Below are positions 17,182 to 24,416 of a stretch of 64,000 nucleotides of DNA, piece by piece. The notes beneath the pieces were generated by a model. That model searched no databases. It had not been told where the DNA came from and saw only the letters and a program-made list of their open reading frames with translations. How positions within the stretch are numbered: the stretch's first letter is position 1; every line of letters starts with the position of its first letter. The DNA is taken from positions 124,001 through 188,000 of the forward strand of contig NZ_JACJFN010000005.1 of NCBI RefSeq assembly GCF_014164785.1. Direction: 5' to 3'. The position numbers were made by a program, and so were the translations under genes. This DNA is from Aquipseudomonas guryensis (GTDB lineage: Bacteria; Pseudomonadota; Gammaproteobacteria; Pseudomonadales; Pseudomonadaceae).

Positions 17182-20067
<2,886 letters not shown>

Positions 20068-20285: not shown

Positions 20286-20473
20286 CCCGGCAACCCCGAG
20301 CCGCCCTCCCCCACAAATTACCGCCCCGCGCCAGCCCACCGGCGCGGAGCAACGCCCAGACGGGCGGTACAGCTTTACCCTTGCGCGTATACCGCAACAG
20401 AACATAATCAGAATTACTGGATATTCATACAGGCCGAGAAGAATGCGGCCGAGTGACCACGCAGGAGAACATG

Positions 20474-21715
20474 ATGCTCAGCTGGGACGAATTTGATAAG
20501 GAAGACGGCGCAGAAGTCGCCGCCAAGCCCGCCGCCGTAGTTGGCGCCGCCATCGACAAGCTCGACGACGAAGCCGCCGGCTCCGTGCAGGAAGCCCGCG
20601 CCGTATCGGCCGACGACTCCGACGCCGTCGCCCGCGCCAAGAAAGCCCTCAACGACCTGGACATCCAGGAAGGCCTCGACGAGCTGGAAGGCGCCGATGC
20701 CCGCGTCCACGTCGGCGACAAGCAGATGATCAACGCCCGCGCCGACCTCAACCAGCTCGTACCCTTCAAGTACGACTGGGCCTGGCAGAAGTATCTGGAT
20801 GGTTGCGCCAACCACTGGATGCCGCAGGAAGTGAACATGAATGCCGACATTGCCCTGTGGAAGAGCAAGGACGGCCTCAGCGAAGACGAGCGCCGCATCG
20901 TCATGCGCAACCTCGGCTTCTTCTCCACCGCCGACAGCCTGGTGGCCAACAACCTGGTGCTGGCCGTGTACCGCCTGATCACCAACCCCGAGTGCCGCCA
21001 GTACATCCTGCGCCAGGCCTTCGAAGAGGCGATCCACACCCACGCCTACCAGTACTGCATCGAATCGCTGGGCATGGATGAAGGCGAGATCTTCAACATG
21101 TACCACGAGATCCCAAGCGTGGCGAAGAAGGCCTCCTGGGGCCTGAAATACACCCGCTCGATCTCCGATCCGAAGTTCGAAACCGGCACCCCGGAAACCG
21201 ACCGCCAGTTCCTGCGTAACCTGATCGCCTACTACTGCGTTCTGGAAGGCATCTTCTTCTATTGCGGCTTCACCCAGATCCTCTCCATGGGCCGCCGCAA
21301 CAAGATGACCGGCACCGCCGAGCAGTTCCAGTACATCCTGCGCGACGAATCCATGCACCTGAACTTCGGCATCGACGTGATCAACCAGATCAAGATCGAG
21401 AACCCGCACCTGTGGGACGCCGCGATGAAGGACGAAGCAACCCAGATGATCCTGCAGGGCACTCAGCTGGAAATCGAATACGCGCGTGACACCATGCCGC
21501 GCGGCGTACTGGGCATGAACGCGGCCATGATGGAGGACTACCTCAAATTCATCGCCAACCGTCGTCTGACCCAGATCGGCCTGAAGGAAGAGTACCCGGG
21601 CACCAGCAACCCGTTCCCGTGGATGTCGGAGATCATGGACCTGAAGAAAGAGAAGAACTTCTTCGAGACGCGGGTTATTGAGTATCAGACTGGTGGGGCG
21701 TTGAGCTGGGACTAA
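20474..21715 (+). CDS. nrdB: Class Ia ribonucleotide reductase, beta subunit
   Basis: Small subunit that holds the diiron centre and tyrosyl radical for NrdA. The 413-aa protein has an alanine/acid-rich N-terminal extension (about residues 10-75), as in P. aeruginosa NrdB, and then the ferritin-like core with metal-ligand motifs [11 protein letters not shown] and DESMHLNFG. The C terminus [10 protein letters not shown] provides the NrdA-docking tail. ATG 20474 (MLSWDEF) lies six bases after AGGAG; the adjacent ATG at 20471 or the GTG at 20453 would be less well spaced. A strong terminator follows. Confidence 0.96.
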
Positions 21716-21791: not shown

Positions 21792-21818
21792 GAAGCCCCG
21801 CCTAGTGCGGGGCTTTTT
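21792..21818 (+). terminator. Rho-independent terminator of nrdB
   Basis: AAGCCCCGC-CTAGT-GCGGGGCTTTTTT: a GC-rich stem followed by six T. It marks the right end of the high-GC nrd region and isolates the following low-GC genes. Confidence 0.92.
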
Positions 21819-21880
21819 TCTGGGCATTAACTATGTGTATTCTTAAGACAATTCGTTCGCTTATAAGAAAACGGCCCACA

Positions 21881-22672
21881 ATGAATGATCAAATTCTGGA
21901 AGAAGCCATTCCAACGCAAGCCCAAACTTCGCTAGCACTGCTACTCTGCGGCCCACTTCCTAACGACCAGAGCGAACTTGACGAAGTACTCAAACATTTA
22001 TCCACCACAATAGACAATGTGACAGGAGAAATAGAGAGGCTCAAGGGCTTCAACGAGTCACAGATAGCCCTTTATGGTCCATTCCTAGGTAGGAGCATAC
22101 TTGAACTAGGTTGCACCGCCTTAATAGCCCGACTGGATCCGTTTAGAGTTCTTGTCATACGAGAAAAACAAAGACAGCCAGATTACGAACTTGGAAAAAT
22201 CAACAAATCATCGATTCGATGGCAAGGCGATGTTCTTGCAGACAAGGTCGGGAATCTCTGGGAAGACAAGTCACTGCAAAATCCAACAAGAGCGCTACTA
22301 GGTGATTACTATTCAAGTTTAATTTGGCCATCAAGCTTCCAAAAGCTTATCGATGCGACTGACAACATCACAGGTGACGATTGGATTGCAGAAATTCGTC
22401 TAAAAGACTCCGAAAGATTTTGCAACGAAATCCGAAGTCAAATATCAACCCTTTATTCCGAATTATCTAAAGGCATACACCACGAACTTGTTATACCTGT
22501 AAGTGCCGCGTTCGATATAGAAACAACAAAAGACATGATACGCAGAAGTATTGTATCAATATCAAATCTTGCACTCGTAAGCACATGCGTACCACACACA
22601 GCTAACAGCTTAGAAATAGGCCTAGCCACAGATGCATATAGACAAATCCAGAAAATGGAAATTTTTCAATGA
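21881..22672 (+). CDS. Unknown protein, first gene of a low-GC two-gene module
   Basis: A 263-aa protein I do not recognise. No signal peptide or clear membrane segment. It looks mostly helical, with LKHLSTTIDNVTGEIERLKGFN near the N terminus, then RSILELGCTALIARLDPFRVLVIREK, and TLYSELSKGIHHELVIP towards the C terminus. Base composition is near the mid-40s % GC in the lines I counted, against low-to-mid 60s % in nrdA, and codons such as ATA and AGA are frequent, so recent transfer is likely. The start at 21881 (MNDQILEE) was preferred; an in-frame ATG at 21833 would lie only 15 bases past the nrdB terminator. No Shine-Dalgarno is visible; TATAAG at 21862 could be a -10 for a nearly leaderless message. 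The stop overlaps the ATPase start (ATGA). Confidence 0.75.
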   Translation: MNDQILEEAIPTQAQTSLALLLCGPLPNDQSELDEVLKHLSTTIDNVTGEIERLKGFNESQIALYGPFLGRSILELGCTALIARLDPFRVLVIREKQRQPDYELGKINKSSIRWQGDVLADKVGNLWEDKSLQNPTRALLGDYYSSLIWPSSFQKLIDATDNITGDDWIAEIRLKDSERFCNEIRSQISTLYSELSKGIHHELVIPVSAAFDIETTKDMIRRSIVSISNLALVSTCVPHTANSLEIGLATDAYRQIQKMEIFQ

Positions 22673-24162
22673 ATAACCAACTTGAAAATTCCTCCTTAAT
22701 ACTCGCAGCTGAGGACTGCCCACCCGATCAATTCTCGAGACTTCACTACTTTTCAAAGCAAGAACAAAAAATAATCTCGAAATTAATAGCACATGGCCCA
22801 GTTTTACTTAAAGGCGCTCGAGGAAGTGGAAAAAGCGCTTTAATGATTGAGGCGTCCAGGAATATGTACCCTGACGCAGACTCAAGCCAAACATTCGGCA
22901 TATATTTAAGTTTGCGCCATCTAGCCCTGATCAGGAGTGAAGGAGAGAAATATGAGAAATTCCTTTGCCAGCTCTTATTAGAAGCAGCAAACTCCACAAT
23001 AAAAAAAGCCGGGCTAGACTTCGAACTAAACGCCCAGCCAAATACGACATCAATCCAGAAAGAGCTATCGAATTTATCGAGCGGAATAGGGAAGAGGATC
23101 GTAATACTCTTTGACGACGCCGCTCACATCGGGCGCGAAACCCCACTCCATGAATTTTTCGACATTTTTAGAACAATTTCAAACAGCGTAATATCTTGCA
23201 AAGCGGCCATATACCCGGGAGTAACAAGATTCGGCAATCGATTCGATGTGTACAATGATGCAACCGTAATCGACGTATCAAAGAGCGATGACTCCGAGGA
23301 ATACAACAAGAGCTATGCAGAAATATTCATCAAGCGCTTTCCAAATGAAAACCCCAATTCGTTATTCACGGAAGACCTCGACCTCATAAATACAGCCGGC
23401 TTTCTCGGAAGAGCAGTATTAGGAAATATGAGGGGTTATATTTTTGCCTGTAACAAGCTAGCAGACGCCAAAGGCGAAGGTAAAATAGGACTTGGCACAC
23501 TAACAAAAACACTTATTGATCTCTCAGCCAACTATTACTGGCCACTCATCGAGGAGGTCATTCCAAAACTCGGAATCTACGCACCAATGGCAGAATCTGC
23601 GATAGATATTGCCAACGTAATATTTAGTGAGTCCGCCAGCAATAACAACAAAAGAAGCGCGACTATACTCAGAGAAATAGCTCAGAGACTTGCAAAGCCC
23701 CTAGAAATCCTAGAATACACAGGGTTCATTTCTATTCGAGACATCTCGAGAGCCATGAAGTCTAGAGGACGGGGGACACGATATATTCTAAACCTCTGCA
23801 CCCTGCTTGAAAAAACGCACGGCGCAAGAATAACAGGCGATTTATTCTCCGCCTGGCAAAATGACAAAGAAGAGCCAGTCGAATTTCACAAAGGTAGCGA
23901 ATTATACAAATTAGAGCTACCAGAGTTATCCGAAAGCGGAGAAATGTTAATCCTTTCAGAGAGCATAGAAAAACTTCGGAAAAGTAACATTTACCCTTAC
24001 GGCCTGACAGACCATAAAATTGATATTCTACTTAAAGCAGGATACAAAACAGTTTCAGACCTAGCTGACGCAAATGATGTCGACTTACTGAAGCTTGATG
24101 ACATTGGCGAACAAACCTTGAAAAGAATAAAAAGCACTGTCGCCCAAGCAATTTGGATGTAA
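22669..24162 (+). CDS. P-loop ATPase (ORC/CDC6- or STAND-like) with C-terminal HhH
   Basis: A 497-aa protein. Walker A is GARGSGKS (residues 49-56), Walker B IVILFDD (144-150), followed by AIYPGVTRFGNRFD, a sensor-like segment seen in ORC-CDC6-like bacterial ATPases. A helical middle and winged-helix-like region follow (about 250-430). The last 50 residues (LTDHKIDILLKAGYKTVSDLA ... LDDIGEQTLKRIKS) are a helix-hairpin-helix of the kind that binds DNA or mediates contacts. The start overlaps the previous gene by four bases, so the two are translationally coupled. Low GC like its partner. The architecture suggests an NTP-dependent nucleic-acid sensor or loader; a defence role is inference from composition and gene pairing. 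Immediately downstream is a cluster of hairpins. Confidence 0.8.
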   Translation: MNNQLENSSLILAAEDCPPDQFSRLHYFSKQEQKIISKLIAHGPVLLKGARGSGKSALMIEASRNMYPDADSSQTFGIYLSLRHLALIRSEGEKYEKFLCQLLLEAANSTIKKAGLDFELNAQPNTTSIQKELSNLSSGIGKRIVILFDDAAHIGRETPLHEFFDIFRTISNSVISCKAAIYPGVTRFGNRFDVYNDATVIDVSKSDDSEEYNKSYAEIFIKRFPNENPNSLFTEDLDLINTAGFLGRAVLGNMRGYIFACNKLADAKGEGKIGLGTLTKTLIDLSANYYWPLIEEVIPKLGIYAPMAESAIDIANVIFSESASNNNKRSATILREIAQRLAKPLEILEYTGFISIRDISRAMKSRGRGTRYILNLCTLLEKTHGARITGDLFSAWQNDKEEPVEFHKGSELYKLELPELSESGEMLILSESIEKLRKSNIYPYGLTDHKIDILLKAGYKTVSDLADANDVDLLKLDDIGEQTLKRIKSTVAQAIWM

Positions 24163-24163
24163 A

Positions 24164-24337
24164 TCTGAACGTCCCCACGCCCCAGCCTGGGAACGTTCAG
24201 ATAATTGATCGTTCCCACGCTCCGCGTGGGAATGCAGCCCTCGACGCTCCAGCGTCCACCTGCCAGCAACCACGCGGCGGAAGCCACAGCGCGACGCAGA
24301 GCGTCGCAGGCTTGCTCCCACGCAGGAGCGTGGGAGC
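24164..24337. repeat. Cluster of five hairpins, TTCCCACGC class
   Basis: Starting one base after the ATPase stop: TCTGAACGT...ACGTTCAGA (24164-24201), TTCCCACGCTCCGCGTGGGAA (24212-24232), GACGCTCCAGCGTC (24243-24256), GCGACGCAGAGCGTCGC (24291-24307) and GCTCCCACGCAGGAGCGTGGGAGC (24314-24337). The second unit matches the common GATCGTTCCCACGC...GTGGGAATGCAGCC repeat of Pseudomonas. The block marks the right edge of the low-GC module and may stop its transcription. Confidence 0.8.
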
Positions 24338-24416
24338 TATCGGGGATCAAAAAGCAGCACAGCTCCACTGTTGGCATGGCTACAAACGCAGTTACAGGCA
24401 AATAGCCATTATCTAA

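Follow-up and report, generated by a model that had tools for sequence, protein, structure and literature searches.

The gene pair downstream of nrdB

A stretch of 64,000 nucleotides from Aquipseudomonas guryensis, hereafter the window (positions 124,001 to 188,000 of contig NZ_JACJFN010000005.1, assembly GCF_014164785.1, a 4.29-Mb genome assembled into 7 contigs), carries downstream of nrdB two overlapping genes, which have been analysed as a candidate anti-phage defence module. Gene 1 lies in a reading frame open from 21833 to 22672 (+ strand, 279 amino acids, aa), gene 2 covers positions 22669-24162 (+ strand, 497 aa), and the stop codon TGA of the former and the start codon ATG of the latter share the four nucleotides ATGA (22669-22672, + strand), an overlap that suggests translational coupling. 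Both open reading frames (ORFs) and their overlap had been reported in a first-pass annotation of this DNA, and they were confirmed directly from the sequence. The module span given there, 21833-24162, holds for the ORF bounds but not for the start of gene 1, which is probably the internal ATG at 21881 favoured by the alignment with its relatives; gene 1 (21881-22672, + strand) would then encode a predicted all-helical partner protein of 263 aa. The low-G+C, foreign-looking composition noted earlier was also found, with G+C contents of 42.1% for gene 1, 42.7% for gene 2 and 42.4% for the whole module versus 61.7% for the window. The G+C content at third codon positions (GC3) was 0.36 and 0.43, respectively, the two lowest values among the 48 non-overlapping window ORFs of at least 150 aa (mean 0.72, standard deviation 0.11), a mechanical list that includes antisense ORFs. 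Promoter matches in the module region were at chance level (3 found, 4.0 expected).

Judged by its sequence, gene 2 encodes a P-loop ATPase of ORC/Cdc6-like type, and its C-terminal tail resembles a helix-hairpin-helix (HhH) domain and the C-terminal domain of the RNA polymerase alpha subunit (alpha-CTD). A motif scan located the Walker A motif GARGSGKS at residues 49-56 (22813-22836, + strand) and the Walker B stretch IVILFDD, which contains the previously described ILFDD, at residues 144-150 (23098-23118, + strand). Both motifs are intact, and residues G49, R51-S56 and F148-D150 were invariant across the eight ATPases of the group of closest relatives (group I, see below). The N-terminus gave sub-threshold Pfam matches to ORC-CDC6-like, ATPase_2 and AAA. 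The tail (residues 453-489, 24025-24135, + strand) matched HHH_5 with E=1.1e-5 and 26.2 bits, just below the 27-bit cut-off, and RNA_pol_A_CTD with E=1.7e-4 and 21.7 bits versus a cut-off of 23.8 bits. The STAND cut-offs were missed by gene 2 (14.4 versus 34 bits for nSTAND_NTPase5 and 12.9 versus 26.7 bits for NACHT). The 27-bit cut-off of the ORC-CDC6-like family PF24389 was exceeded by the related ATPases of loci L052 (59.2 bits), L072 (46.0), L051 (32.9) and L055 (32.8), and gene 2 of locus L069 gave no match to this family at E≤0.01. Gene 2 was homologous over nearly its full length to a second, less closely related group of ATPases, group II (hhalign E=2.5e-33).

In a Foldseek search with the gene 2 model, 13 of the top 15 matches were named ORC/Cdc6 (E values of 0.008-0.21, none ≤0.001) and the remaining two were chains of MCM-loading complexes. 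With VIA, the tail was matched by the N-lobe of RAD51 and by the RNA polymerase alpha-CTD (best rows with Z of 9-11 over about 60 residues, root-mean-square deviation (rmsd) mostly 1.4-2.2). Matches to the N-terminal part were ORC, a BrxC complex, Avs3 and RdrA at Z of 7-9, where values below 8 may mean little. These fold results serve as support only because the models are of low confidence, with mean predicted local distance difference test (pLDDT) scores of 47.8 for gene 2 and 53.9 for gene 1. The earlier description of gene 2 as an ORC/STAND-like ATPase with an HhH tail is backed by the profiles, the relatives and the model matches, with gene 2 itself remaining below the Pfam cut-offs.

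The signature YSxxSKGxHxE of gene 1, at residues 192-202 (22454-22486, + strand), is kept in the seven group I proteins that could be aligned, which also have in common the sequence IRWQGDV and a GDYY element.

Relatives of the pair and their distribution

Group I comprises eight loci: that of the window, L009-L013, L069 and L079. Homologous overlapping pairs were found in five cyanobacterial loci (67-70% identity for gene 2 and 55-61% for gene 1) and on the two viral contigs L069 and L079 (51% and 50% for gene 2, 37% and 42% for gene 1). In all eight, gene 1 comes first and overlaps gene 2 by 1-4 nt; the co-occurrence suggested as a check by the first-pass annotation was therefore found throughout, in one case (L012) with an interrupted gene 1. 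In that locus, from a Chamaesiphon metagenome-assembled genome, gene 1 (L012:5213-5983) has one in-frame TGA, for which an assembly error and a real inactivation are indistinguishable, and the remaining frame and gene 2 are conserved. Both genes are under purifying selection: in the cyanobacterial loci, the ratio of non-synonymous to synonymous substitution (dN/dS) was 0.23-0.34 in three pairwise comparisons of gene 1 and 0.11-0.22 in five of gene 2; for the comparisons of the window with L009 and of L069 with L079 the estimate was saturated.

To judge from this distribution, the pair is mobile: it occurs in bacteria that are not related to each other and is also carried by phage-like DNA. Flanking genes differ between most group I loci, and the two Tychonema loci have the same neighbours. 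On the viral contig L069, 103 nt separate the pair from a portal gene, after which come genes for terminase, scaffold, capsid and small terminase; this is the head-gene order of P2 type beside gpQ. In P2-like phages the gpA-gpQ interval is a hotspot of anti-phage systems (PMC9122126). On L079 the pair adjoins an integrase-like ORF, with a VgrG-like ORF on the other side (names read from translations). Loci L079, L069, L052 and L077 contain no tRNA, and no convincing att-like direct repeats were found at the module borders.

Within the genus, where the search was made with gene 2 and not with gene 1, 7 of 398 genomes including the source had any relative of gene 2, and those in the six other genomes were distant, with 23-39% identity over the aligned portions. 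The closest kin of gene 2 that was found is cyanobacterial. Among 386 cyanobacterial genomes, gene 1 was detected in two and a group I ATPase in the same two, and the ATPase search (A9) matched 30 of them, four strongly (two group I and two group II) and the other 26 weakly and partially, mostly in the HhH tail. The wider gamma-proteobacterial samples yielded the source genome plus weak partial matches (3/369 and 11/369 genomes). A further 84,980 species genomes were scanned with six exact peptide patterns, which reach close relatives only. Gene 2 and two of its relatives had no match in 50,697 phage records, and gene 1 had none in plasmids. Scanning viral sequences with gene 1 gave no match, yet the two viral contigs found via gene 2 carry gene 1, and the viral and phage scans are therefore not exhaustive.

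In a tree of 23 ATPases, group I (support 100/100), group II (99/100) and a methyltransferase-associated group (97/99) were separate. The members of group II are L052, from the same genus and with phage-like neighbours by reading, L077 and L078, both viral contigs, and L072, from a Planktothrix plasmid, with the further loci L082 and L083 from cyanobacterial genomes. The operons of the methyltransferase group (L053-L056 and L074-L076), which belong to distant relatives within the genus and on plasmids, combine an N6-adenine methyltransferase, the ATPase and a partner protein with an Rx4H motif of the RHCCVH type, and their ATPases have CxxC pairs and a tail that is HhH-like by eye. The operons L074-L076 lie on Rhizobium and Cupriavidus plasmids. 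L055, the only such operon scanned with PADLOC, gave a type II methyltransferase match and, for the ATPase, weak mad8 and PDC-S01 matches. Close to the operon of L053 there is a second ORC-CDC6-like ATPase (L053:1973-3979, - strand), which matches nearly the whole of PF24389 with 321 bits. Directly upstream of the group II pair of the Planktothrix plasmid there is an annotated gene of the PAPS-reductase family (L072:2459-3259), and an ORF of PAPS-reductase-like look, by reading, precedes the group II partner in L083 (L083:26-757).

The variable site 3' of nrdB

On its left the module adjoins the conserved gene nrdB (20453-21715, + strand), preceded by nrdA (17182-20067), both named from their translations. 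The terminator that had been placed behind nrdB can be read from the sequence as a hairpin with a T run (21793-21819, + strand), but the scan lists a palindrome there on the - strand only, and terminator-like sites in the region were no more numerous than expected by chance (4 found, 3.3 expected). Relatives share nrdB together with this terminator, and at this point, between 21818 and 21822, the homology with the relatives G013, G008 and G014 ends. The hairpin cluster described earlier on the right-hand side is present, with 18-nt arms at 24163-24202 that are 89% complementary, followed by repeat DNA at 24205-24351 that also occurs in G013; these elements form the right border (24163-24351). 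Similarity to G013 breaks off at 21819 and is found again from 24205, within the repeat DNA, and from 24849, in a gene that reads as CsbD-like; the insert that G013 carries at this site, about 1.57 kb long (43.9% G+C), has two other small ORFs. The first-pass annotation had asked whether the site is empty in close relatives. The pair is indeed not conserved at nrdB in them, but the site holds different cargo there instead of being empty.

Low-G+C DNA (0.33-0.48 in each of the 300-nt steps that make up the initial 900 nt) directly follows nrdB in 8 of 17 other loci of the same genus, which represent 16 genomes; G004 and G006, broken over contigs, and four loci of other genera were left out. Stretches from 15 genomes were then considered, with PADLOC applied to 10 proteins from eight loci and NCBIfam plus Pfam to 10 proteins from seven loci, all hand-picked. 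PADLOC matches at E≤0.001 were obtained in seven of the eight scanned loci, L048 having none. They comprise BstA in L061 (E=4e-118), PDC-S35 in L047, with a Pfam CAP12/Pycsar TIR domain, PDC-M38A/B in L062, PDC-S59 in L045, PDC-M68B in L063, mREase_IV in L065, encoded by the second ORF and outside the low-G+C DNA, and a weak PDC-M28C match in L046 (E=1.3e-7), which NCBIfam assigns to the Sll1717-family ATPases. The PDC families are candidate defence genes. The spot 3' of nrdB is thus probably a defence hotspot, to be taken as a lead and not as a measured enrichment because it comes from hand-picked proteins of 8 of the 15 loci, scanned with no control locus, and PDC matches are candidates.

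The modules that follow nrdB in different species (L044-L048, L061-L063 and L065) are unrelated to each other and most are of low G+C content. Small BRO-N/antirepressor-like proteins, by reading, recur near nrdB in several species (L063-L065 and L068), and in the genome G017 nrdB was matched twice at similar scores (L030 and L037), each time with different downstream DNA.

Partner proteins and proposed defence function

The partners of the related ATPases have an Rx4H or Rx6H motif, as in HEPN proteins, in 13 of 13 cases scanned (group II 4/4, group III 1/1, methyltransferase group 7/7 and L073 1/1), or 15 of 15 counting L082 and L083. Two of the four Rx4H partners scanned (L073 and L054) weakly matched HEPN_RiboL-PSP (E of 0.001-0.002), and the partners of groups II and III were homologous to each other (hhalign E=1e-6, probability 91%). 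When the group I profile was aligned with the Rx6H partners, S193 and H200 of gene 1 fell at the positions of the arginine and the histidine, respectively, and H200 is invariant, together with K197, in the seven aligned group I proteins. A kinship of gene 1 with the partners of the related ATPases is suggestive but not proven. A pattern of three colinear motifs fitted all the group I and group II partners tested, and not those of group III or of the methyltransferase group; it matched 13 distinct ORFs out of 602, all of them partners, and none of the other 589 in this mechanically compiled control set, spurious frames included. The pattern was drawn after viewing the sequences and is not an independent test. 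Foldseek gave nothing at E≤0.001 with the gene 1 model, and the best VIA matches, with fungal lipid-binding domains on top (Z 7.9), were not taken as proof; AbiV appeared at ranks 6, 9 and 10 (Z 6.1-6.3, 116-124 aligned residues, rmsd 4.0-4.2). The HEPN family Parep1/8 keeps the histidine without the arginine, and another basic residue has been proposed as its substitute (PMC3710099). Gene 1 is therefore called HEPN-like here as a hypothesis, not as a family member. Considered together, the sequences suggest a common scheme, in which a nucleic-acid-binding ORC-like ATPase would control an effector of HEPN type and one branch would add methylation as a mark of self.

With moderate confidence, we interpret the pair as a defence module of abortive-infection type, acquired by horizontal transfer, coupled in translation and located in the probable hotspot behind nrdB, in which the ORC/Cdc6-like AAA+ ATPase would be a sensor or switch and gene 1 an HEPN-like effector. 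The HhH/alpha-CTD-like tail of gene 2 may bind nucleic acid, probably DNA, and upon infection the ATPase would change its state with ATP. Gene 1, held and controlled by gene 2, would be activated in this way and, as a predicted HEPN-like all-helical protein, might act on RNA and harm the cell or the phage, so that growth of the infected cell would stop. The analysis shows the pair with its overlap and motifs, its mobility and its conservation by purifying selection, the family of the ATPase and its HhH tail, the variability of the site and the carriage on phage-like contigs, and we infer nucleic-acid binding, ATP switching, complex formation, an HEPN-like effector role and phage resistance. 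The defence role put forward in the first-pass annotation is supported by association, through co-occurrence of the two genes, the PADLOC matches at the nrdB site and the two viral contigs.

Several results weigh against this interpretation. The search of defence profiles proposed earlier did not bear it out, as PADLOC-DB 2.0.0 lists neither of the two proteins among its defence systems (no match for gene 1 at E≤1, only AbiO at E=0.022 for gene 2), and the L069 pair had no PADLOC match at 0.01. Gene 2 misses the PF24389 cut-off (20.2 versus 27 bits), and both structural models are of low confidence. As the earlier annotation had stated, gene 1 resembles nothing recognised: at E≤1 no model of Pfam, PADLOC or NCBIfam matched it, at E≤0.001 none of PHROGs did, and Pfam was empty even at E≤10 for its relatives in L079 and L010. 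The HEPN arginine is absent at the aligned position in the seven group I proteins, none of which has an Rx4-6H motif there (one match elsewhere, in L013). The similarity of the group I profile to the combined partners of groups II and III is weak (score 25.1, probability 4.4%, none of 150 column shuffles as high), and with fewer sequences the score was 22.5, equalled or exceeded by one of 60 shuffles (22.7). Against group II partners alone (score 14.4) or single partner sequences there was nothing, at probabilities of 0.2-0.4%, and the same was true against the methyltransferase-group partners (score 14.9, shuffles up to 20.4). Rx6H partners (groups II and III) and Rx4H partners (methyltransferase group) scored 12.8 against each other, with a shuffle mean of 13.3; a single partner superfamily is a hypothesis because the two kinds have no detectable mutual similarity. 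Finally, no gpA could be recognised in the scanned part of the other flank of L069, and the exact gpA-gpQ position was not established.

The missing arginine also fits an unlikely but credible alternative, in which the pair would still serve defence but gene 1 would be an adaptor or substrate-binding subunit, either a non-catalytic HEPN-like protein or another helical fold, and gene 2 would block phage DNA, for example by loading on origins or forks. The gene 1 group keeps its other residues, non-catalytic HEPN domains exist (PMC3710099), and gene 2 resembles the DNA-loading ATPases ORC/Cdc6; but the invariance of H200 and K197 in the seven proteins, as in Parep1/8 with its proposed replacement of the arginine, speaks against this alternative, as does the full motif in the partners of the related ATPases. 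A distinct type of defence appears distinctly unlikely. In this type, the ORC/Cdc6-like ATPase with its alpha-CTD-like tail would monitor DNA or transcription during infection and unleash an arginine-less HEPN derivative with its chemistry rebuilt on the lysine/histidine pair of SKGxHxE, and the module would be sister to the operons of methyltransferase, ATPase and Rx4H partner, where the same kind of ATPase would tell self by DNA methylation.

The readings without a defence role were ranked lower than the abortive-infection module. Two coupled genes found on phage-like contigs and at variable sites might serve to stabilise mobile DNA, as a toxin-antitoxin or addiction module does, without a phage-specific trigger, and HEPN proteins reportedly occur as toxins (PMC3710099). 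We regard this as very doubtful, since a small antitoxin would not look like the larger gene, which encodes an ATPase with a tail of nucleic-acid-binding type, many known or candidate antiviral genes occur at the host site, and the operons of the methyltransferase group contain a possible self-marking enzyme. The ORC/Cdc6 resemblance and the presence of the pair on viral contigs could likewise indicate a remnant of phage or plasmid replication or partition, that is, an initiator with an accessory gene; this is extremely improbable, because the viral-contig pairs adjoin a portal gene or an integrase-like ORF, the cyanobacterial pairs stand among ordinary-looking chromosomal genes, and the relatives are combined with Rx4-6H proteins and a methyltransferase. 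An ordinary resident low-G+C housekeeping operon, to which the purifying selection in cyanobacteria could point, is scarcely credible, as the other 397 genus genomes, searched for gene 2 and not for gene 1, have no close relative of it (distant ones in six), other modules occupy the nrdB site in close relatives, where the pair has so far been absent, and the closest relatives found are cyanobacterial.

Gene 2 shares its Walker A and B motifs and its predicted ORC/Cdc6-like core with ATPase families of conflict systems, the ORC-CDC6-like family PF24389 and the Sll1717 family NF047389, but it scores below both cut-offs (16 versus 75 bits for NF047389, PF24389 as above) and has the HhH/alpha-CTD-like tail and a dedicated upstream partner. 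DS-41 is a validated Escherichia coli anti-phage system of DefensePredictor (PMC13092281). NF053860 appears, from its model name, to be this system and to be a distant ATPase relative of gene 2; the similarity concerns the P-loop region and is weak, with E=0.0084 for gene 2 and 1e-5 to 6e-5 for three relatives, and gene 2 reaches 15.1 bits versus an equivalog cut-off of 370 bits. The HEPN defence proteins AbiV and RiboL-PSP-HEPN are like gene 1 in the predicted all-helical fold and the conserved late histidine, but gene 1 has neither the arginine nor an HEPN profile match, and its Z score with AbiV is below the level that is meaningful for helical models. PARIS (AriA ATPase plus AriB) is also a two-gene cassette of NTPase and effector located in hotspots of phages and satellites, but it has an ATPase of AAA_15/AAA_21 type and a DUF4435 TOPRIM-like effector (both points from PMC9122126), neither of which was matched here (Pfam, E≤1). 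In PARIS the counterpart of gene 1 was reported to show no toxicity by itself, and loss of the counterpart of gene 2 to do no harm (PMC9122126). No description of the pair or of the nrdB hotspot was recognised in the open-licence literature searched, and the module is most likely an uncharacterised variant of NTPase-plus-effector defence.

If this is true, the pair would add to bacterial immunity an uncatalogued, phage-carried two-gene module common to cyanobacteria and a pseudomonad-like bacterium, and it would link ATPases of ORC/Cdc6 type, relatives of replication initiators, to HEPN-like effectors. It would also be a natural case for an HEPN-like function without the arginine, and the 3' side of nrdB would be a productive place for defence genes in the genus.

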